Shown piece after piece: positions 6,444 through 30,779 of a DNA stretch of 32,279 nucleotides. The position numbers and the translations under genes are program-made. The stretch is from the NCBI GenBank assembly GCA_937872225.1, contig CALMRZ010000018.1, forward strand, positions 1 to 32,279, given 5' to 3'. The notes beneath the pieces were generated by a model that saw nothing but the letters and a program-made list of their open reading frames with translations, ran no database searches and was not told the origin of the DNA. Source of the stretch: an uncultured Spirochaetota bacterium (GTDB taxonomy: Bacteria > Spirochaetota > UBA4802 > UBA5550). The number at the start of each line of letters is the position of its first letter. Position 1 is the stretch's first letter.

Positions 6444-8855
6444 CTACTTAAACCTCTTCAGCAGCAGCGAATTCATCACCACTGACACCGAGCTCATGGC
6501 CATGGCCGCGCCGGCCAGTATGGGCGACAGCATCCCCGACGCCGCGAAGGGTATGCCGATGCAGTTGTATATGAAGGCCCAGAAAAAGTTCTGCCTGATC
6601 TTCCGTATGGTACGGCGCGAGAGCCGGATCGCGGTGACGACCCCCGTGAGGTCGCCGCTCATAATGGTTATGTCCGCCGATTCCATAGCGATATCGGTGC
6701 CCGTGCCGACGGCGATTCCCGTGTCCGCGGCCGCCAGGGCCGGGGCGTCGTTGATGCCGTCGCCCACCATGGCCACCGCCCCTGCCTTGCGCTGAAGGTC
6801 CCGCACCGCGTCCGCCTTGCCGCCGGGAAGGACCCCGGCGATGACCCGGCCGGCGTCGATGCCTGCCTGCTCGGCGATGAATTCGGCGGTGCGGCGGTTG
6901 TCTCCCGTCACCATGTACACGTCGAGCCCCATATCCTTCATGCCGGCCACCGCCCGCCGGGACGTTTCCCTGATGGTGTCCGAAACCGCGACCACTCCGG
7001 CAGCCCTGCCGCCGGCGGCGACGATCACTGCGGTTTTGCCCATGCTTTCCAGGCCGGCAATGATATCATCGCAGCAGGATGCGTCAATGCCGCTCTCCCG
7101 CACATAGGCCAGGGTCCCGGCCAAAATGTCAGTTCCGTCATACCGGGCGCGCACTCCCCTGCCCGGCTCCGCCATGAATTGCTCCGGGTCGGGAATGTCA
7201 TGCACCTCCGACGCGCGGCGGTATATGGCCCTGCCGACCGGGTGCTCGGATTTCTTTTCAGCAATGCCGGCATAGCGCAGCAGATCGTTTTCCGGGATCC
7301 CGCCGGCCGAAACCGCGTCCGAAACCGACAGGTCGCCGGTGGTGATGGTGCCGGTCTTGTCAAGCATAACGGCCCGCGTGCGGTACGCAGCCTCCAGTGC
7401 CGGGCCGCTCTTAAAGAGGATCCCCAGGTCAGCGCCGCGGCCCGTGCCCACCATGACCGCCGTGGGGGTGGCGAGGCCGAGGGCGCAGGGACAAGCGATG
7501 ACCAGCACCGCCACGGCACTCACGATCGCCATTTCCAGGTTCCCCGTGGCGACCATCCATGCGACGAAGGCGACCGCCGCCACCGCAAGGACCGACGGCA
7601 CGAATACCGCGGCCACCCTGTCGGCGAAGCGCTGGATCGGCGGCTTCCCGGCCTGGGCCTCCTCGACGGTGCGGATGATCTGTGCCAGGACGGTATCCCT
7701 GCCGACGCGCTCCGCCCGGAAGGCAATCGTCCCGAAGCGGTTGATGGTCGCCCCGGTGACCGGGTCGCCGGGGCCCTTGTCGACCGGCACGCTCTCGCCG
7801 GTGATCATGCTTTCGTCCACCGATGAAGAGCCCTCGATGACGCGGCCGTCAACGGGGATCTTCTCTCCCGGCCGCACCGTCACCGTGTCTCCCGGCGCGA
7901 CCTCGGCGGCCGGGACAACGATCTCGCGCCCGTCCCTCACGATGGTGGCCGTCGCCGGCTGGAGCTTCACGAGCTTCTTGATGGCTTCGGATGTCATCCC
8001 CTTGGCGCGCGCCTCGAAGAACTTGCCCAGCAGGACCAGGGTTATGACCACGGCCGAGGCCTCGAAATAGAGGTCCCCCGCGGCGGCGCCCGTCAGCGGC
8101 AGAATAAAGCCATTGTATATGCTGTAGAAATAGGCGGCGCTGGTCCCCAGGGCCACCAGGAGGTCCATACCCGGACTGCCGCCGCGGACCCCCAGGTACG
8201 CGTTGCGGTAAAAACGCCATCCCACGACGAACTGCACCGGCGTGGCCAGGGCAAGCTGCAGCAGCGGATGATGGAGCGCAGGGGCGTGGACGCCGATCAG
8301 CATCAGGATCATGGATGCTATCAGGGGGGCGCTCAGCGCCGCGGACACGGCGACCAGGATGCCGAGCTTCCGCACCTCGCCGCGCCGGAGCTCCGCGGCG
8401 CGGTCCGGGGCCTCCTCCTCGATCTTCTCTGCGTCATATCCAGCCCGGCGTATCTCGTCGATGATCTCATAGGACTTGACCCTGAGGGGATCAAAGCGCA
8501 CCCTGCCCTTTTCCGTGGTGAGGTTCACGGCGGCCTCGAGGACCCCGTTCTTTTTCGCAAGAGCCTTTTCGATGCGGGCGGCGCAGGCGGCGCACGACAT
8601 CCCGGTTATGATGAGATCAACCTGGCCTTCGCTTTTCTGCTCCTCCAGTTCGGCCCCGTAGCCCGCCTTTTCCACGGCGGCGATGATATCGTCCTGCTTG
8701 ACCGCCGCGTCATCAAAGGTGACGCTGGCCGTTTCCAGCGCCAGGTTGACGCTGGCGTCGCTCACTCCCTCCAGCTTTTTCAGCGACTTCTCGATCCTGG
8801 CCGAACAGGCGGCGCAGGACATTCCGGTTATGCGGAGCTTCCTGATTGTTTCCAT
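6444..8855 (-). CDS. copA: Copper-translocating P1B-type ATPase
   Basis: 803 residues from [11 protein letters not shown]. The open frame runs 273 bases further upstream but would cross the divergent gene and its promoter, and AAGGG precedes the chosen ATG. Two N-terminal heavy-metal domains carry GMSCAAC (C14/C17 and C88/C91). The membrane copper site is C455-P-C457. The phosphorylated aspartate is D499 in [11 protein letters not shown] (actuator), SEHPVG (nucleotide-binding histidine) and [14 protein letters not shown] (hinge) are all present. [13 protein letters not shown] in the last helix supplies the conserved M-SSxxV pattern. These features indicate Cu(I) export from the cytoplasm rather than Zn/Cd transport. 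No CueR/CopY-type regulator gene is adjacent. Confidence 0.93.
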
Positions 8856-8955
8856 TACAGTGCCCTTGTTAGTAAGAAATCCATGTCCGTATATTGTTAC
8901 CGCGGGGGGACCGATTGCAACCAACTTATCAGCCATCAATATAAAAAAAAGAGGA

Positions 8956-8984
8956 TTGAATTTTTTATCGACTCCGGATATAAT
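8956..8984 (+). promoter_or_regulatory. Strong promoter of the exported protein divergent from copA
   Basis: TTGAAT at 8956-8961 and a perfect TATAAT at 8979-8984 are separated by 17 bases. Transcription would start near 8991, leaving about 34 bases before the ATG at 9025. It probably also serves the PII-like gene 61 bases further on. Confidence 0.65.
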
Positions 8985-9024
8985 CCCACCAGAGACATAC
9001 CATAAGAAATGAAAGGGTTTATTC

Positions 9025-9897
9025 ATGAAAATGACGACGCTGTTACTTCTGACCTGTGTGTTTCTCGCCGCCGTGGTCGTTACCGACGGCGCCGGCGAAC
9101 CCATGGAAAAGCACTTTGTAATCATCAATTATTCGGTCCACCATTGCAACGCGGAGATTGAGCTGAACGGCATACACATCACCGAGACCGACAGGGACGA
9201 CGCATACACGGTAACGGGTTTTTCCGAGGTCGGCATGTGGATCTATCCCGGGACAAACACCGTGACGGTTGCCGTCAAACCCCTTGAAAAAAAAATCGAT
9301 TCGTCCGGCAAACCGTCCATAACGGTCAGCCTGTCCACCGTCAGGGAAGGGCAGATGACCAATGAAGGAAAAATATTTTTCGAATTACGGATCCCGGAAA
9401 AAGAGGGCGATAACCGCCTTGATAATGTCAAATCGCCCTTTACCAGATCGGCAACCTTCAAGCCGTCATATGTTCCTCCCTCGGAATTGTGGGCCAGGGC
9501 AAAACCGGCAAAGCTGGACGACGAGGCGCGCAGGCAGATAACCGGGATCATCAGGGATTACCACGCGGCGCTGCAGAAGAAGGACGCCAATGCCGTCTGG
9601 GACCTGCTCCGGTTCGCCTCCACGGACATGATGAAACTGCGCCACCAGTCCACCGATGACCTGAAGACAAAATTCATGCAGTCATTCAAGGAAATGCTGG
9701 CCGAAAGGGATTTCATCCTCCTGCCCCTTGACGCGGACAATCTGGTCATGAGGCCGGTTGCCGACGGAAAGCTCGTCGAAGTCACCGACAGGAACGGCAG
9801 GGAACCGATACGGACAAAAGAAATCAAGAACGCGGGATCATTCACCTTCGGCGTGTACGCGGGTTACATTGACGGGAAATGGATGATAGCGCGATAG
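9025..9897 (+). CDS. Exported protein with C-terminal NTF2-like domain, function unknown
   Basis: 290 residues with a classical signal peptide ([19 protein letters not shown], cleavage near residue 23). Residues 25-125 are rich in alternating hydrophobic residues, suggesting a beta-sandwich. The C-terminal half (about 155-290) begins with [21 protein letters not shown] and ends [16 protein letters not shown], the pattern of SnoaL/NTF2-like domains (helix, then curved sheet). That is inference from pattern, not a database match. I do not recognise the whole protein. A GAAAGGG ribosome site precedes the ATG. It is divergent from copA and upstream of a PII-like gene, so a link to metal stress is possible, though it has no metal-binding Cys, Met or His clusters. 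Confidence 0.75.
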
Positions 9898-17381: not shown

Positions 17382-19373
17382 ATGGCCATAACCAATGACG
17401 ACCTCAAGCTGATTGCGACATCAATACGGACCCTGTCCATGGACGCGGTTCAGAAGGCCAACTCCGGACACCCGGGCATGCCCATGGGGTGCGCCGATAT
17501 CGCCGCCGTGCTCTGGGCGAAGATACTGAAGCACGACCCGGCCGATCCCGCCTGGGCCAACCGCGACCGCTTCGTCCTGTCCGCGGGCCACGGGTCAATG
17601 CTCCTCTATTCCGCGCTGCACATGAGCGGGTACGACCTGACCCTTGACGATATCCGGAACTTCCGCCAGCTCCGCAGCAAAACCCCGGGACATCCCGAGC
17701 ACACGGCGACGCGCGGGGTGGAGACCACCACCGGCCCCCTGGGCCAGGGCTTCGCCAACGGCATCGGCATGGCCGTGGCGCGGGACATCCTCGCCGCCGA
17801 GTTCAACGGCCCTGACGGCGCCGTCATCGACCATTACATCTACGCCCTCGTCAGCGACGGCGACATCATGGAGGGCGTTTCCTCGGAGGCGGCCTCCCTG
17901 GCGGGCCACTGGGGCATCGGGAAGCTGATATACATCTATGATTCGAATGACATCTCCATCGAAGGGCCGACCAGCCTCGCCTTCTCCGAGGACGTGGCGA
18001 AGCGCTTTGCCGCGTACGGCTGGCACGTGCAGAACATCGACGGCCATGATTACGCCCAGATAGAGAAAGCGATCAAAAAAGCTCAGAAGAACCTCGACCG
18101 GCCATCCATCATCATCGCCAAGACCCGGATCGCCAAGGGAAGCCCGAAACTGGAAGGATCCGAGGAATCCCACGGGGCGCCCCTGGGCGTTGACGAGGTT
18201 GCGGCATCCAAAAAGAACATCGGCTGTTCCCCGGACGAATCCTTCTGCGTTCCCCAGCGGGTGTATGACATCTTCGGCGAGCGGAAGAAAAAAATGAAAA
18301 GGGCCCACAACGCGTGGAAGAAGCAGTTCAAGGCGTCGTTATCCGGCGAGAAACTGGCCCGGTGGAATTCCTTTTTCAGCATTCCCGACATCAACGCCCT
18401 CAGGACGAAGCTTCCCGCCTTCGACCCGGCCAAGGCCGTGGCGACGCGGTCCGCGAGCGGGAAGGTCCTCGAGGCGCTCTTCAGGGAAATGCCGAACCTC
18501 ATCGGCGGGTCCGCGGACCTCGGTCCCAGCAACAAGTCCTTCGTGAAGGGCTTCAGCGAATCGGGAAAGGGCGCGATCGGCCGCAATATCCACTTCGGGA
18601 TCAGGGAGCACGCCATGGGGTCGATCCAGAACGGCATGGCCTATTACGGCGGCATCGTCCCCTACACCGCCACGTTCCTCGCTTTTCTCGACTACATGCG
18701 GCCGCCGGTGCGCCTTGCCGCCCTGGGCGGGCTCCGCACCATATACGTCTTCACCCATGATTCCTTCTTCGTGGGCGAGGACGGCCCCACGCACCAGCCG
18801 GTGGAGCACGTGGCGTCGGCGCGGGCCATCCCCAACCTGAACGTGATACGGCCGGCCGACGCCGAAGAAACGAAGGAAGCCTGGCTCGCCGCCATCGCCC
18901 GGGCGAAGGGCCCCACCATGCTTTCCCTCACGCGCCAGGACCTGCCCGTCATAGCGCGGGAACAGGGCCGCGGAGCGGAGAACCTCCACAGGGGCGCCTA
19001 CATCGTGAAGGACGCCGCCGGAAAGCCGGACATCGTGATACTGGCGTCAGGATCGGAAGTGCATGTATCCATGGCCGCCGCGGAAGAGCTCGCGTCAAAA
19101 GGAATCAAGGCCAGGGTCGTCTCCTTCCCCTGCTGGGAGCTCTTCGACGAGCAGCCGTCATCGTATCGCATGGAGGTGCTGTCCCACGGCACCCCCAAGG
19201 CCGTCGTTGAGGCGGGGATCCGCATGGGCTGGGAGAAATACGCCGGCCCCCATGCCCTCTATGTCACCATGGAGACCTTCGGGACGTCTGCGCCGGCCAA
19301 GGTCCTGGCGGAAGAGTTCGGGTTCACGAAGGAGAACATCGTGAAGAAAATAACGGAGTTCCTGAAATCATAA
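17382..19373 (+). CDS. tkt: Transketolase
   Basis: 663 residues, full length. It transfers two-carbon ketol units between sugar phosphates in the non-oxidative pentose phosphate pathway. [13 protein letters not shown] (about 27-39) and the ThDP/magnesium motif [19 protein letters not shown] (about 162-180) lie in the N-terminal domain. [19 protein letters not shown] contains the catalytic glutamate of the second domain, and [20 protein letters not shown] contains conserved substrate histidines. The C-terminal domain ends with [23 protein letters not shown] lies eight bases before the ATG. The gene stands alone; the next gene follows 82 bases later. Confidence 0.95.
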
Positions 19374-19455
19374 TGCGTAACCTTGGCGGGGTCAGGCGTT
19401 CATATCCTTCACTGGATGATAAATTTCGCCATATGAAAACAGGCAAGAGGGAACA

Positions 19456-19662
19456 ATGATGAAACAGATAGTAACGGCGCCGGGAATGAGCTGCATGCAC
19501 TGCAAAATGACCATTGAAAAGGCGGTGAAAGGGCTGCCGGGAATTGCCAGCGTCAACGCGGACCCGGACACGAAAAAAGTCGAAATTAATTTTGACGAAA
19601 AGACTGTCACGCTGGAAGCCATCAGGCGTGCCATAGAAGAAGCCGGCTATGATGTGGAATAA
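19456..19662 (+). CDS. copZ: CopZ-like heavy-metal-binding chaperone
   Basis: 68 residues making one heavy-metal-associated (HMA) domain. GMSCMHCKMTIEKAV holds the Cu(I) ligands C13 and C16, and the fold ends in the usual IEEAGYDVE. Such proteins carry Cu(I) in the cytoplasm to CopA, whose own HMA domains have the same motif. A mercury or other soft-metal carrier is possible. Two adjacent ATGs occur (19456 and 19459), with GAGGGAAC just upstream. The true copA lies 10 kb away. Confidence 0.85.
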   Translation: MMKQIVTAPGMSCMHCKMTIEKAVKGLPGIASVNADPDTKKVEINFDEKTVTLEAIRRAIEEAGYDVE

Positions 19663-19742
19663 TATCCCCTATACCTTCGCCCCGGGTCCGGGAAAACCAG
19701 CTCTCAGCATGTAAACATTTACATACGATAAATTTTAACGCC

Positions 19743-19767
19743 GCCGCGGCCCTTTCCGCGGCTTTTT
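19743..19767 (+). terminator. Rho-independent terminator after copZ
   Basis: GCCGCGG (19743-19749) and CCGCGGC (19756-19762) form a seven-pair GC stem with a CCCTTT loop, followed by TTTTT. It is the clearest intrinsic terminator in the window and separates copZ from its paralogue. Confidence 0.85.
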
Positions 19768-19792
19768 CATATCTCTTTTTTCACTCCGGCAG

Positions 19793-19821
19793 TGGATAAT
19801 TCCCGGTAATATTGGTATACT
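19793..19821 (+). promoter_or_regulatory. Promoter of the cysteine-less HMA gene
   Basis: TGGATA (19793-19798) and TATACT (19816-19821) are 17 bases apart. Transcription would start near 19828, just before AAGGAG and the ATG at 19843. With the terminator upstream, this makes the paralogue a separate transcription unit. Confidence 0.5.
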
Positions 19822-19842
19822 AATAAACACAAGGAGTTATCC

Positions 19843-20073
19843 ATGCTTGTAACAAAAGAACTAACCTCAGCCAACATGAGGGGCGGTTACAGCAAAACGA
19901 CCATCGAGAATGCCGTCAACAACCTTGGCGGCATCGAGAGTGTCGTCGCGGACCCGTACACAAAAAGGGTGACGGTGGAATTCGACGAGTCCACGCTGAC
20001 CGTCGAGGACATCCGGCACACCATCGAGGACGCTGGCTACGAAGCTGAAATCGAAGCCGATTCGATGCAGTAG
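19843..20073 (+). CDS. HMA-domain paralogue lacking both metal-binding cysteines
   Basis: 76 residues. An ungapped alignment to the CopZ-like protein 180 bases upstream gives about 33 identities in 62 positions, covering the whole fold (TIENAV, ADPYTKRV, FDES, DIRHTIEDAGYE). In the metal loop, however, GMSCMHCK has become NMRGGYSK: C13 aligns with glycine 14 and C16 with serine 17. It therefore cannot bind Cu(I) in the normal way. The frame is intact and has an AAGGAG ribosome site, a promoter and well-formed secondary-structure positions, so it looks expressed and selected. It may be a regulatory or structural partner, or bind something else. Confidence 0.8.
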   Translation: MLVTKELTSANMRGGYSKTTIENAVNNLGGIESVVADPYTKRVTVEFDESTLTVEDIRHTIEDAGYEAEIEADSMQ

Positions 20074-24384: not shown

Positions 24385-26814
24385 TCAGTGCGCCACGACA
24401 ACCTTCAGCATCTTATCAAGGGTGGTCCTGTTGCCCAGCGTTATGGCCTTTATGTGGATATAATAGAGTCCCGGTCCCACCCGGCGGTTGTCCTTGTTGA
24501 CGCCGCACCAGCCGGTGTCGCGGATATTCTGGCCACCCGGACGGTACATCCGGTCCGCCAGGATGTTGATGACCCTACCCTTCGCGTCATATACCTTGAT
24601 GGTCACCAGGGAATCAACGGTCAGGAAATAGGCCGGGAAGCAGCAGGGTATCGCGCTGGTCAGCACGTTGTTCAGCACCCTCGTCGGCCACGGAAAGAAA
24701 ACGGCCTTCTTGCTGACGCGAAAACGCCATTCATCCTGCGTCCAGTCGCCGGGAGGAGCGGCATCAGGCGTATGGTCGTAGTAGGTTGGCACCCCGCCGA
24801 TCACGGTTTCCACGATAAACCGGATATTTGCATTCATTCTCATGAGCCTGTGCGTGCTCGGGATAAGGGCCTGGTAGGTATTGGCCGTGATCTTTACGCA
24901 GGGTATGGTCCAGCGCCCCGTGCCGCTGGCGAGACTAATGATATCGTCATTGGGTGCGGGAGCGGGGACCGTACCATACTGCGGCGTCCCCGGGCCTTCG
25001 TCAGAATCGTTTCCGGCGATAATGATATTGACCCGCTCCGGGACCTTTCCCGCTGTGACAATGTACACGGTCACTTTTATGGCTGTTTTCCTCACGGTGT
25101 GAGCGGCCGGATCAGCATTTGAAAAAGCGCTGTTGGGATACGAGGTTATCCCGTCAGTAATAGATGCCTCCACGGTAACCGCCGATGTCGTTACGTTGCC
25201 GGAGATCTGGTTATCCAGGGGAACCTCATTGCCAAACACATCGATGGCTGAAATCCGGTAATTATAGTCCGTCAGGGGCTCGAGGGGATTGGCGGCCCCT
25301 CCCACGGTATAGGTACCGGTGCCTATCAACCCGAGGGCCGCGTCAGTGGACCTGTCGAGCATCCGCCAGGTCGGATCGCCAACCCGCCGGAAATATATGC
25401 GGTATGTTTGAAAATCAGCATCATAGGCCGGCGCCCCCGTTGAAAGCGGCGTCCACTGAAGGGTGAAGCTTGTTGCTGTCGAGGACGGCGGTAGCGAGCC
25501 CAACTGGGGAGTAAAAGGGGTGGCGCCATATCCGGGCCAATGGGCGTTTTCCCAGCGGCAGGGATAGGGGCCTGAATTCAGTATCCGCGCCGCCACGTTC
25601 TGCCCGTTTGCCGGGTTGGTATTGCCGTAGGCGCCGCCCGTAACGGATTGGACTGAATAATCAACTTGACTGTTGCCGCCCGGACCTACAGCCGGAAGAG
25701 GTGTTATTAACACGGTACCTGTCGCAGCGCCATTGAGAACCTGCAGGTTGTATGTGTTGGTGCCGTCAGTGACGGAAAAGGTCACAGTGCCCTGCATTAC
25801 TGCCGTGGTTTGAAGGCGGAGCTGGGTACCGGATACATTCTCGCTTCTGACATAATATGGTTGAGGTGGATTATTGACACCTCCCCCGTTAACGAACGTC
25901 AATCCACCGGCGTTCACGCTCACCATGCCGACAATGACATTCAGCGTGCCGGTGGCGAGTTCAGGCCCGCCGGGGGTATTCATGGCCGCCGTGACGGACC
26001 ATGTGTACGGCCCGGGTATGCCGGCGGCGATCACAAGCGCGGCGGTAGCCAGGCCATTGGAAAAATACTCAAACCCGACCTGGAACACGAAGTCGTTTGT
26101 TGAGCCTGCATTAGCGATTGCTGTCGGCGCCCCAGTCCGATTAAGCACCAGGCTGTTTATTTCAGCCGCCGGGACCTGGGTGGTAATAGACTGGCCCAGA
26201 ATATAATATACGATCCGGCCGGTAATGTTGAAGGCATCATGCCATGGATTTACGAACCCGTCCGCAGCATCCCCGGTCTGCGCGAAATTAAGCACAGCGA
26301 TCTGGGAAATAATGCCAAAATTGAACGTGCGGGTATTATTGGCTGAAGTGGCGTTGTTGTTCGCGGTAACGGTTGCGGTTATGTTGTTATTGGCCGATTG
26401 TTGAGGCGCGGCATTCCAGTTAAACCGGACGACCACCGTGTAATCGATCGCGGTATACGGACCTGCGCCCCCTGAATTGTCGGTCGCTGACAGAACCGTA
26501 ATATTGGTTCCGCCGAAGGCGTCGGCCCCGGGACTGTTGAGGTCGACATAGAAGCTGCTACCCCCGGGAAAAGCGACATTGATGGTATGCTGTGCCGCGT
26601 TGCTCCAGTAGGCTTTCCCCGTGGCTGCCGTGTCTATCGCCTGTATGCGGAAGGTGTAGTCACCGGTCGTATGCTGCCCGGCGCAATAATATGACAGGCC
26701 GTTGGACAATGTAGTCGGAGAGGCGGCAGTAAGAGTAACCGATGAAATGGCCGCCCAAGCCTGTGATGTCAGTAATATAATCGCAATTATGGGGAAATAT
26801 ATATATTTTTTCAT
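24385..26814 (-). CDS. Large exported protein with fibronectin-like and FlgD/sorting-like C-terminal domains
   Basis: 809 residues. A classical signal peptide (MKKYIYFPIIAIILLTSQAWA) is followed by a beta-rich, Asn/Thr/Gly-rich region (25-400). A fibronectin type III-like segment follows (around 450-540: YRIYFRRVGDPTWRMLD, then LTDYNYRISAIDVFGNE). The C-terminus (about 715-809) reads VTIKVYDAKGRVINIL, then GLYYIHIKAI and a basic tail. This is the Ig-like fold seen in FlgD and in type IX-type sorting domains. That suggests surface display or secretion, but no secretion partner is in the window. Function unknown. It is divergent from the larger surface protein and shares overlapping -35 elements with it. 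Confidence 0.8.
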   Translation of the reverse strand: MKKYIYFPIIAIILLTSQAWAAISSVTLTAASPTTLSNGLSYYCAGQHTTGDYTFRIQAIDTAATGKAYWSNAAQHTINVAFPGGSSFYVDLNSPGADAFGGTNITVLSATDNSGGAGPYTAIDYTVVVRFNWNAAPQQSANNNITATVTANNNATSANNTRTFNFGIISQIAVLNFAQTGDAADGFVNPWHDAFNITGRIVYYILGQSITTQVPAAEINSLVLNRTGAPTAIANAGSTNDFVFQVGFEYFSNGLATAALVIAAGIPGPYTWSVTAAMNTPGGPELATGTLNVIVGMVSVNAGGLTFVNGGGVNNPPQPYYVRSENVSGTQLRLQTTAVMQGTVTFSVTDGTNTYNLQVLNGAATGTVLITPLPAVGPGGNSQVDYSVQSVTGGAYGNTNPANGQNVAARILNSGPYPCRWENAHWPGYGATPFTPQLGSLPPSSTATSFTLQWTPLSTGAPAYDADFQTYRIYFRRVGDPTWRMLDRSTDAALGLIGTGTYTVGGAANPLEPLTDYNYRISAIDVFGNEVPLDNQISGNVTTSAVTVEASITDGITSYPNSAFSNADPAAHTVRKTAIKVTVYIVTAGKVPERVNIIIAGNDSDEGPGTPQYGTVPAPAPNDDIISLASGTGRWTIPCVKITANTYQALIPSTHRLMRMNANIRFIVETVIGGVPTYYDHTPDAAPPGDWTQDEWRFRVSKKAVFFPWPTRVLNNVLTSAIPCCFPAYFLTVDSLVTIKVYDAKGRVINILADRMYRPGGQNIRDTGWCGVNKDNRRVGPGLYYIHIKAITLGNRTTLDKMLKVVVAH

Positions 26815-26882: not shown

Positions 26883-26904
26883 ATGACGGTATTTCATTTA
26901 TTAT
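26876..26904 (+). promoter_or_regulatory. Strong promoter of the 1,271-residue surface lipoprotein
   Basis: A perfect TTGACA (26876-26881) and TATTAT (26899-26904) are 17 bases apart, the best promoter in the window. Transcription would start near 26911, which rules out the first in-frame ATG at 26883 and supports 26955 or 26964. Confidence 0.7.
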
Positions 26905-26963
26905 TTAATATATTACAGCCATTTAGCTTGAATAGGTCAATCAAAAAATCCTTTATGCGCATA

Positions 26964-29900
26964 ATGAACCGCATCATCGTCCGGGGATTGATTCTTGCAG
27001 CCGGAACCATCATGCTGGCGTTCACGGCATGCAAGGAAGCGCCGTCGGTTTTCCCCCTGGATACCATTATAAATTTCGTTTCCAATCCTCCCGGGTACTA
27101 TTATCCGCTGATCATGAACGTTGCGCCTGCTAACGGCTCGACCGAGATCGCGGTCAATACCAGCTGCGCCGTTGTCTTCAACATGGCCGTCGATCCGGCC
27201 ACCCTGACCGCGGCCACGGTCAGGGTCCACACGGGGCCCCCGGCCCCGGCAGGCACCGACCTGAACTTCGGGGTGGATTTTACGGTTAACTACACGCCCC
27301 TCGACGCCTTCATGACCATCTCCTTCGCCGCGACACTGCCCGCAAGCACACCGGTGACACTGACGCTGACCGGAGGGATTACCGATCCGACGGGGATACC
27401 CCTGAACAACCCCGGGTCCTTCACCTTCACGACAGGCACGATCGCCGACACGACACAGCCTAACATATCTGCGGGAACCGAAAATCCGACCGGCGGCGGT
27501 ATTGAACTGACCAATGCGCTGCGGCTTGCCAATTCCCATCAGATTGAAATAACCTTCGACAAGGCAACCATCGATCCATCCACCGTCAGCATGACAACTT
27601 TCTACCTGTATGATAATGCCGGGGGATTTGTCGTCCCCTCAACCTATGCCTTTGCCTATGCGGCGACCACCACCACGGTGACACTGACGCCGACGGTCAA
27701 CCTGGCGGCGTCAACCGCGGCCAACAATTATACAGTCTGGGTCACAACGGGAATAAAGGACCTGGCGGACAATTCCCTGAGCGCCGGCATGAATTGGAGC
27801 TTCACCACCACAGTAACGCCCCTCGACCCGGTGGCGGGAGCGCCCACGTACGTGAGCGGCCCCCTGGTGGACTACGCCAAGTTTAACGCATTATCACAGA
27901 ATGAGGCGCTCATCAGCTGGACCAATAACGAGACGACCCGGTACCGCGTGTATTACGGCCTGGGGGATGACATCGCCACGGCAATTCCCGGAGCCGCGAC
28001 CTGGGGTGAATACTCCGACTACCACGCGGTAACCCTTGGCCCGACCCTGACGGCAAACCACCGTTACTGGTTCAAGGTGAGATGCCAGGATTACAGCTTC
28101 CTCCCTACCGCGCCGGCAGACTACCCGGCGACGGCGCTGCAGTTCAATACAGAGAGCGATGACGCCGCCGGCGGCATGGTGATCATCGACGATGGCGGCG
28201 GCACCGGGAGCCAGCATACCGCCCGGAGGCTGACCCAGCACCCGGTCAATGGGAACCCGACCGGCTTCTTCCTCTTCTGGACCAGCAACCCGGGCGCAGG
28301 GAACGGCATCAACGGGCAGTTTTACGACAGTACGCTCGCCGCGGGATGGAACGGGGGAAGCCCCCATATACTCTTCAACAGCGGCGCTAACTACGCCTTT
28401 CAATCCGCGGCCGAAGACGGATATAATGGCGTCATAATACTGGCATCAGCCGGCGGCCTCACCTACGCCAAGCGTTTCTCGAGCAGCGGCGCATCCTCCT
28501 GGGGTTACGCGTCCGCTGCCAACGGCCTCGCGGTGGCGGCCGGCGCCATCTCCAGCGTATCGGCTGTCCCGGTATATAACAGCATCACGCTGACGGTCAC
28601 CAGCGGGGTGACGGAGATGGGTTCCCTGGGGCTGAGCAATCCCTTCTTCGACGATGATGTGAACCTGAGCGGACTTACTGATGGTGACATTATCATGGAC
28701 CAGGCCACCCACGACGGCACAACCATCGACAACAATACCGTAGTGCAGAACTTTAATTACATTCTTGGACAGGATAGCAACATCATCGGGGCCGGTGACA
28801 CTTATTTTATTGGTGATGCCAGCAGCAGTGTCACTATAACCGAAACCGACCACGACATTTGGGACACCAGCCCTTCCGCCCTATATTATGATTATGCCAG
28901 TAATGTCAATAACGATCATGTGTATACGCCTCACGGCTATACGCTACCCGGCGGCTGGACCTTAAATGCAGGCGATATTATCATGAATGGCGCAAATTAT
29001 GGAAGACTCACTGCGGTGAACCTAAGAACACCGATAACCATTGCGGGAAACAGGATAGATTCCGGCACAGTCACGGGAACGAGTGATGATCATCTATATG
29101 ATGCAAAAATGTGGAGCACATTCAATCTCGTCGAGAATAATGATCGGGTTGTTAACACAACGGACAGTCTTGTCAGTTATATTACTAATGTGGCTGATTT
29201 TGACCTGACACTCTTTAATCCACCGCTGATGAATTTTAATTTCGGCTTTCCCAGCGACAGTTATGCTATATACGACCGGTATTGCGTGGACCACTCGGGT
29301 GATGCCAATCAATTCAGCGCGTTCTATGATTTTACAGTCAACTGGGCAATTACCATATTAAACGGCGTAAACTTCACCGTGTACGATTATACCGGCCCTA
29401 CGGGCACGGCCCAGGCCATACCGGCAAATCCGCTGCTTGATAACGAAGGGACATTTCAATCCGCCGTCGCGCCATTACCGGTAGTGATCGGCGACATTGT
29501 CACCAATACTACGGATTCGACCTCCGCTCTTGTCAGTTCATCAACATACAATCACGCGCTGGGACTGGATTCAAATATCATGGCCGACAACGAATTTTTT
29601 TCCATCAGGCGTTACCGGTACACCCCGCTGGCCGCCGGGCGATGCGGCGCCGGAAGCTCCACCAATACCATCATCGACCCAGCCAACAACTTCCCGGCCC
29701 TCTCCGTCCAGGTCGGAGACATCGCCTACAATCCGGCGACCAGCCTGTATGCCGTTATCATAGCCATTCCATCAAACAACGAGCTTACTCTCTCCAGGAA
29801 CATCGGTTTCGCCAATAACATACTATACGGCATATTTCACTGCCCCGGGGTTCTCTTTACATACCAATCGGGAGCGGACGTATTGGGCAGGGTTGTGGCC

Positions 29901-30779
29901 ATGGAAGGTACACCGCCGGTCCAGCTGGTGGCGCCCTTCACCATTTCGGCGGCATCCAACAGTCCCACTGCCATTTCCGACGGGAACGGAAACGCGATCG
30001 TCATATACCGTCTTTCTGCAACGCAACAGATCTTTGCCCGGCTCGTGAGCCTGCAGGGGGTCACCACTGCCGGTCCCTTCGAGATTGACACGCAAAACGC
30101 CTCGGCCGAGACGATCCTTGACGTGCAGAGCGACAACGCCGGGGGAGCAGTCATACTTTACAAACTGGCCTCGAATTCCCTGCGGGCGCAGCGGATCACC
30201 CTTACCCCGGCCGCGTCGACGCGCAACTGGAGCGCTAACGGCATACAGATAGCCCTTATGGCGACAACGGAAGAAGCCATGGAATACCTTCCCGCGGCCG
30301 ACGACGTGATCGTCGCGGCGAACAACAACGGCGGCAACAACATGTACGCATGGAGATGGCACGGCGCGGCGATCCCGTCTGTCGTATGGGCCCATGCTCC
30401 TCTTACCGCCACCGGGACGGCGCACCAGCCGAAAATATACTACGATACCGGCGCTGCCACGGCCATAATACTGTGGCATGACGACCGGTTCTACGCCCAG
30501 CCGTATATCAGCACGGGACAGGGAGTTTTCGGTCTCAAGGTAAATGCCCTGACCGGGGCAATCGATGCGGCATGGAACGCGGCGGATTCCGGTACGGCTG
30601 ACTGGAACGGCGCCTCGATTATATTCAACCATTATGACATTTTTCCGCCAAATCCCATTGTGGCGCCATACAATAACAGCAACAACGGATTGGTCATATG
30701 GGACGATTACCGGGCCGGCAAGCCGAACGGCGCCCCGGACCTGCGGTACCTGCCCCTTGACGGCTTTACGCCTCCCTGA
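26964..30779 (+). CDS. Very large surface lipoprotein: Ig-like, fibronectin-like and repeat modules
   Basis: About 1,271 residues. The signal MNRIIVRGLILAAGTIMLAFTAC ends in a lipobox-like FTAC. ATG 26955 (three codons earlier) is an alternative start; neither has a clear ribosome site. Residues about 50-165 and 168-290 look like two Big_5/SbsA-type Ig domains (VAPANGSTEIAVNTSCAVVF; QIEITFDKATIDPSTV). A fibronectin-like domain (290-395) follows. From 395 on, beta-propeller-like blades recur (NGVIILASAGGLTYAKRF; NGNAIVIYRLSATQQIFARL; GGAVILYKL; NGLVIWDDYRAG). About residues 550-960 interrupt the blades with degenerate GDI-N repeats encoded by more AT-rich DNA. It is probably exposed at the cell surface. 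Function unknown. Confidence 0.82.
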   Translation: MNRIIVRGLILAAGTIMLAFTACKEAPSVFPLDTIINFVSNPPGYYYPLIMNVAPANGSTEIAVNTSCAVVFNMAVDPATLTAATVRVHTGPPAPAGTDLNFGVDFTVNYTPLDAFMTISFAATLPASTPVTLTLTGGITDPTGIPLNNPGSFTFTTGTIADTTQPNISAGTENPTGGGIELTNALRLANSHQIEITFDKATIDPSTVSMTTFYLYDNAGGFVVPSTYAFAYAATTTTVTLTPTVNLAASTAANNYTVWVTTGIKDLADNSLSAGMNWSFTTTVTPLDPVAGAPTYVSGPLVDYAKFNALSQNEALISWTNNETTRYRVYYGLGDDIATAIPGAATWGEYSDYHAVTLGPTLTANHRYWFKVRCQDYSFLPTAPADYPATALQFNTESDDAAGGMVIIDDGGGTGSQHTARRLTQHPVNGNPTGFFLFWTSNPGAGNGINGQFYDSTLAAGWNGGSPHILFNSGANYAFQSAAEDGYNGVIILASAGGLTYAKRFSSSGASSWGYASAANGLAVAAGAISSVSAVPVYNSITLTVTSGVTEMGSLGLSNPFFDDDVNLSGLTDGDIIMDQATHDGTTIDNNTVVQNFNYILGQDSNIIGAGDTYFIGDASSSVTITETDHDIWDTSPSALYYDYASNVNNDHVYTPHGYTLPGGWTLNAGDIIMNGANYGRLTAVNLRTPITIAGNRIDSGTVTGTSDDHLYDAKMWSTFNLVENNDRVVNTTDSLVSYITNVADFDLTLFNPPLMNFNFGFPSDSYAIYDRYCVDHSGDANQFSAFYDFTVNWAITILNGVNFTVYDYTGPTGTAQAIPANPLLDNEGTFQSAVAPLPVVIGDIVTNTTDSTSALVSSSTYNHALGLDSNIMADNEFFSIRRYRYTPLAAGRCGAGSSTNTIIDPANNFPALSVQVGDIAYNPATSLYAVIIAIPSNNELTLSRNIGFANNILYGIFHCPGVLFTYQSGADVLGRVVAMEGTPPVQLVAPFTISAASNSPTAISDGNGNAIVIYRLSATQQIFARLVSLQGVTTAGPFEIDTQNASAETILDVQSDNAGGAVILYKLASNSLRAQRITLTPAASTRNWSANGIQIALMATTEEAMEYLPAADDVIVAANNNGGNNMYAWRWHGAAIPSVVWAHAPLTATGTAHQPKIYYDTGAATAIILWHDDRFYAQPYISTGQGVFGLKVNALTGAIDAAWNAADSGTADWNGASIIFNHYDIFPPNPIVAPYNNSNNGLVIWDDYRAGKPNGAPDLRYLPLDGFTPP
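28660..29780 (+). repeat. Degenerate GDI-type repeat modules inside the surface lipoprotein gene
   Basis: Related segments recur in the protein: GDIIMDQATHD (near 28685), GDIIMNGANYG (near 28975), NDRVVNTTDSLVSYITN (near 29138), GDIVTNTTDSTSALVSS (near 29490) and GDIAYNPATSLYAVI (near 29718). Two copies continue into LGQDSNI and LGLDSNI (near 28768 and 29563). The spacing is irregular, so these are diverged modules rather than tandem DNA repeats. The DNA here is visibly more AT-rich than the flanks. Confidence 0.6.

Follow-up and report, generated by a model that had tools for sequence, protein, structure and literature searches.

A cysteine-free paralogue of the copper chaperone CopZ with the substitution pattern of purifying selection in two sister species of Spirochaetota

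Introduction

Copper chaperones of the CopZ/Atx1 type, represented by the models PF00403, TIGR00003 and NF033795, carry a CxxC motif after strand beta1 of the HMA fold. HMA domains that have lost this motif are known from plants. In rice HMA4, MBD-1 is a CxxC-less metal-binding domain (MBD) lying beside the ATPase core, and in the cryo-EM study it is interpreted as extending the actuator domain structurally (PMC10973460). In MBD3 of Arabidopsis RAN1 (8RNZ) the cysteines are replaced by Asn and Asp. The domain nevertheless bound Cu(I) in vitro; it has been proposed to be an anchor or regulator, and its contact with a partner is predicted to run through the sheet (PMC12586476). In the HMA-like domains of plant HIPPs and in the integrated domains of NLRs, the CxxC-less HMA fold serves as a protein-binding surface (reviewed in PMC12835825).

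Here we analyze a stretch of 32,279 nucleotides from an uncultured Spirochaetota bacterium (hereafter, the window). It encodes a CopZ and, next to it, a 76-amino acid CopZ paralogue without cysteine, which we call HMA2 (19843-20073, forward strand). Like rice HMA4 MBD-1, HMA2 retains the HMA fold (in its case by prediction) while the CxxC is gone (PMC10973460), and like RAN1 MBD3, which is a structural match to the HMA2 model, it is a degenerate HMA domain with a predicted intact fold. Unlike these two, which are domains within ATPases of plants, HMA2 is a separate protein. With the HIPP and NLR domains it shares an HMA fold (in HMA2, again, a predicted one) that has lost CxxC; those domains, however, belong to eukaryotic proteins that are often larger, fused or isoprenylated, and to an unrelated lineage of loss.

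Results

HMA2 lacks both metal ligands of CopZ

The copZ gene (19456-19662, forward strand) follows the transketolase gene tkt (17382-19373, forward strand), and five species of the genus share this order. The copZ start is more likely to lie at the second ATG, 19459, than at 19456, since the copZ of a relative begins at the equivalent ATG. A ribosome site, GAGGGA (19447-19452, forward strand), is read from the sequence 6 nt before this likely start. The product is a copper chaperone with a CxxC (MSCMHCK). It matches Pfam HMA with 72.1 bits and scores over the cut-off of TIGR00003 (65.2 against 62), yet below that of NF033795 (79.1 against 91).

Comparison of the two neighbouring proteins revealed 52% identity over 63 residues with no gaps, in agreement with an earlier note on this DNA that had put the paralogues at about half identical. 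The MSCMHCK of CopZ is aligned to MRGGYSK of HMA2. The replacement of CxxC by GxxS described in the earlier note is therefore present, as GGYS, and HMA2 has no cysteine anywhere; its reading frame is intact, also as described. HMA2 belongs to the HMA superfamily by its match to Pfam HMA (PF00403; 45.3 bits, E 1.1e-11, cut-off 24.8). Both NCBIfam copper models place it under their cut-offs (38.3 against 62 for TIGR00003; 48.9 against 91 for CopZ_Bs, NF033795), and after beta1 it has GGYS, or GGHS in its orthologue, instead of the CxxC of CopZ. On these features, HMA2 should not be called a copper chaperone, because it has neither the motif nor the scores of CopZ. It resembles the CopZ/Atx1-type chaperones in length, gap-free identity, Pfam match and predicted fold, and differs from them in the missing cysteines, the low copper-model scores and an acidic C-terminal tail, EIEADSMQ, which is the same in both species where HMA2 was found. 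The whole protein is more acidic than CopZ (pI 4.3 and 5.3, respectively).

An AlphaFold model of HMA2, built with an 8-sequence alignment, has a pLDDT of 89.5. Its elements (E2-10, H15-26, E31-37, E42-48, H54-63, E67-70) are those of the HMA fold, so the statement that the CopZ-type fold was kept holds by prediction. The best structural matches of the model are CopZ, MerP and ATPase MBD structures, mostly at 0.7-1.0 A rmsd; against CopZ 6ff2, Foldseek gave a TM of 0.96 on the target and 0.7 A.

HMA2 retains Met12 and Met75. Binding of a metal through these and other ligands (His59, carboxylates), with HMA2 serving another or a harder metal as chaperone or sensor, appears improbable to us. It would fit the strong acidity of the protein, and His59 is common to three related cysteine-less proteins and missing in the CopZ proteins compared. 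The loop, however, contains no His, Met or Asp cluster, residue 16 being Tyr, His or Arg, and Met75 is missing from the third relative. The RAN1 domain, which bound Cu(I) without CxxC (PMC12586476), also speaks for this possibility: a missing CxxC is no proof of missing metal binding. With this precedent and with Met12 and Met75 kept, residual Cu(I) binding by HMA2 is conceivable.

HMA2 has its own promoter

Downstream of copZ there is a terminator-like hairpin followed by a T run (19743-19762, forward strand), with a 7-bp, all-GC stem and an energy of -14.7 kcal/mol. It is followed by a sigma-70-like promoter of HMA2, TGGATA-N17-TATACT (19793-19821, forward strand). The region yielded two sigma-70-like promoters, whereas 0.7 would be expected from shuffled sequence. 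In the sister species the element reads TGGATA-N17-TATAAT, and the hexamers and the 17-nt spacing are kept. The ribosome site reported earlier for the second gene, AAGGAG (19831-19836, forward strand), ends 6 nt upstream of the ATG and is also conserved in the sister species. The promoter had been described as isolated by a terminator; this is well founded for the window, and less well for the sister species, whose hairpin is weaker (-11.1 kcal/mol).

Several other features of the window were observed. Between copZ and the terminator, positions 19711-19733 contain a palindrome, GTAAA(C/T)ATTTACATA(C/A)GATAAAT, common to the sister species. A shared operator with other copper genes was considered and rejected: the conserved GTAAAYATTTAC palindrome is found once in the window, here only, and the longer element has one other genomic copy, with three mismatches, and no second good copy. 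Within 19792-19843, TGGATAA of the -35 element is complementary to TTATCCA, which overlaps the HMA2 start region, so a transcript reading through from copZ could mask the HMA2 start; in the sister species these segments pair less strongly. Further downstream, adjoining polA, two divergent genes encode large proteins (24385-26814, reverse strand, and 26883-30779, forward strand). The product of the former has 809 amino acids and a weak fibronectin type III-like stretch. The position of the pair is kept across the family while the sequences diverge fast.

An orthologue without cysteines and a constrained sequence

Orthologues were sought in the genus (6 species), the family (20 genomes) and the phylum (393 genomes). 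In this search the sole close match (83% identity) came from the sister species, where the locus order is the same, tkt-copZ-HMA2-esterase-polA. The loop of the orthologue is MSGGHSK and it contains no cysteine. The two species are sisters in the polA tree with support of 100/99. HMA2 is absent from three congeners (G001, G003 and G005) although copZ follows tkt there, which indicates that it is dispensable; in the sixth species (G002) there was no HMA match whatsoever. The distribution is patchy, at two of the six species of the genus, and HMA2 is clearly intact in two members that form one sister pair. Among plasmid relatives, the matches carry annotations as CopZ, copper-binding proteins or P-type ATPases, and the one unannotated match has CxxC. 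Since both orthologues lack the cysteines, the loss is, as judged from the two sequences, older than the split of the species and hence not the local decay that cysteine-bearing orthologues would have indicated.

The two HMA2 genes differ at 44 nucleotides, and 30 of these changes fall at third positions; 13 amino acid changes result. Three methods gave dN of 0.09-0.10, dS of 0.9-1.3 and dN/dS of 0.07-0.11; for the CopZ pair of the same species dN/dS is 0.09-0.16. When changes were placed neutrally in 5000 random trials, a mean of 28 amino acid changes and a minimum of 19 were obtained, and over half of the placements additionally made a stop. The low dN/dS and the small number of amino acid changes relative to neutral placement demonstrate purifying selection at the sequence level for this species pair, in a single comparison with dS of about 1, near saturation. 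A relaxed substitution pattern, named earlier as evidence against a new role, was not what we found: HMA2 is strongly constrained.

These data bear on the view that HMA2 is a non-functional relic in decay. Such a relic would account for the patchy presence, and a relative in another genus, described below, has a possibly damaged start and is one codon short. A decaying gene would not be expected to show a dN/dS of about 0.08, an intact frame, and a promoter and ribosome site that are conserved between two species at dS of about 1. Contradicted by both dN/dS and the neutral placement trials, this explanation was rejected as very improbable.

The changes between the orthologues are unevenly distributed. 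Strands beta1, beta3 and beta4 and the tail are invariant (none of 26 positions changed), while three of nine positions of the old metal loop changed. The CopZ pair shows the opposite, with the cysteine motif fixed and the strands variable. We noticed this small contrast post hoc, and its p of 0.02 was obtained for a single partition of our choosing. On this contrast, the putative working surface of HMA2 would be the sheet face and the tail rather than the old metal face; as a weak, post hoc hint, it also speaks against docking by way of the former metal-site face.

CopA and the possibility of a decoy

The likely pathway partner of CopZ is CopA, a copper P-type ATPase with two CxxC metal-binding domains (6444-9128, reverse strand), whose true start is probably the methionine of METIRKL, at 8855. 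CopA has two MBDs in the window (8412-8855) and in the sister species, and one in the other congeners. The single MBD of G001 (L098) resembles the second, and those of G003 (L097) and G005 (L096) resemble the first, a pattern suggesting that the domains were lost separately. In two genera of the family, CopA frames of about 815 amino acids (L077 of G016, L072 of G010) end in a CopZ-like CxxC domain and represent CopA-CopZ fusions.

HMA2 might be a competitive decoy that, through its old metal face, takes the CopZ docking site on the MBDs of CopA, or dimerises with CopZ, with less copper transfer as a result. K18 and the TIE of helix 1, beside the former metal site, are retained on a fold predicted to be intact, and a two-MBD CopA is encoded 10 kb from HMA2. 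In the two species that carry HMA2, CopA has two MBDs; in the three that lack it, CopA has one. The correlation rests, however, on one sister pair; a tie between HMA2 and two-MBD CopA, though it fits the genus, is broken by G008 and G011, which have two-MBD CopA without HMA2, and was rejected. HMA-HMA contacts of the docking type are largely bridged by copper, and between the HMA2 orthologues variation is greater at the metal-site end. We consider a decoy unlikely.

Origin of HMA2

In another genus of the same family (G015), a cysteine-less HMA is encoded at positions 10226-10444 of L040; its lone cysteine is residue 2, away from the metal site. With the metal-loop columns removed, it clusters with the HMA2 pair (support 89/84). 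A recent duplication inside the sister pair, which would unite HMA2 and CopZ of the same two species, was disfavoured with these columns removed (AU p 0.012), in trees built on an alignment of 63 columns only and having long branches. The "duplicate" of the earlier note thus stands as a paralogue and probably not as a recent copy made within the pair. The simplest reading of these sequences is that duplication preceded the split of the two genera, with losses afterwards; long-branch attraction between HMA2 and the G015 copy is possible. In that copy, the ATG with the best position relative to its ribosome site does not share the reading frame of the HMA domain, and one codon is missing in beta3. 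The copy may be damaged near its start. All other HMA domains inspected in the family table carry CxxC. A survey of cysteine-less HMA proteins across the phylum covered the high-scoring matches listed, and any frequency taken from it would be biased.

Two further cases were observed elsewhere. A Clostridiaceae MAG (L028, 5938-6147) encodes a 70-amino acid cysteine-less HMA protein, weakly matching Pfam HMA_2 (PF19991); its gene is flanked by rluD and nadD, and copper genes are absent there. An unrelated 118-amino acid HMA protein without CxxC is encoded in another family of the phylum (L050, 2373-2729, reverse strand), near copA and a 164-amino acid protein containing cysteine; no clear orthologue of it was detected among 120 genomes of its family. 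As these cases are unrelated, loss of the metal cysteines from free-standing HMA proteins has, by sequence, probably occurred more than once.

The HMA scaffold of HMA2 could have been recruited to a role outside metals, adjacency to copZ marking its birthplace only. The G015 relative is encoded at a distance from copZ and close to the gene of an ArsR-type regulator, and the genomic setting of the Clostridiaceae protein is likewise free of copper genes. HMA2 itself, however, remains beside copZ in both intact cases, and we give a non-metal role little credence.

Discussion

We favour, at a probability of roughly 0.4, the reading that HMA2 is a former CopZ-type chaperone which no longer binds Cu(I) at its usual site and has been kept as a small protein-interaction module in copper handling. 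HMA2 would bind another protein, and this partner would most likely belong to copper handling, with CopA, CopZ or a regulator as candidates. Contact would be made by the beta-sheet face and the acidic C-terminal tail, with no copper bridge, and HMA2 might anchor or tune its partner, by analogy with the CxxC-less MBD of rice HMA4 and with Arabidopsis RAN1 MBD3. The partner, the surface and the link to copper are what we infer; it counts against this interaction module that HMA2 lies outside any copper operon of its own. The earlier note had proposed a new role as decoy, docking partner for CopA or regulator. Its general part, that an intact and selected protein with a lost metal site has changed its role, is supported, and the specific roles are proposals.

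More tentatively, and with some doubt, HMA2 may be regarded as a free-standing bacterial "pseudo-chaperone" that gave up copper and became a dedicated regulator or anchor of copper export. It would act in trans, in contrast to the CxxC-less MBDs of eukaryotic copper ATPases, which are present in cis, and such proteins may have arisen repeatedly, as in L028 and L050.

Cysteine-less HMA modules are known in principle; a free-standing bacterial one under measured selection appears to be new. In the open literature we found no account of a bacterial CopZ paralogue without cysteines; this is weak evidence, most subscription journals lying outside the search.

If HMA2 acts without metal, it offers a natural way to ask which functions of the HMA fold go beyond carrying copper. 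The CxxC-less domains of eukaryotic copper ATPases raise the same question, but isolating them for study is difficult. A small, probably soluble bacterial protein encoded beside its metal-binding parent would, if metal-free, be far easier to handle.
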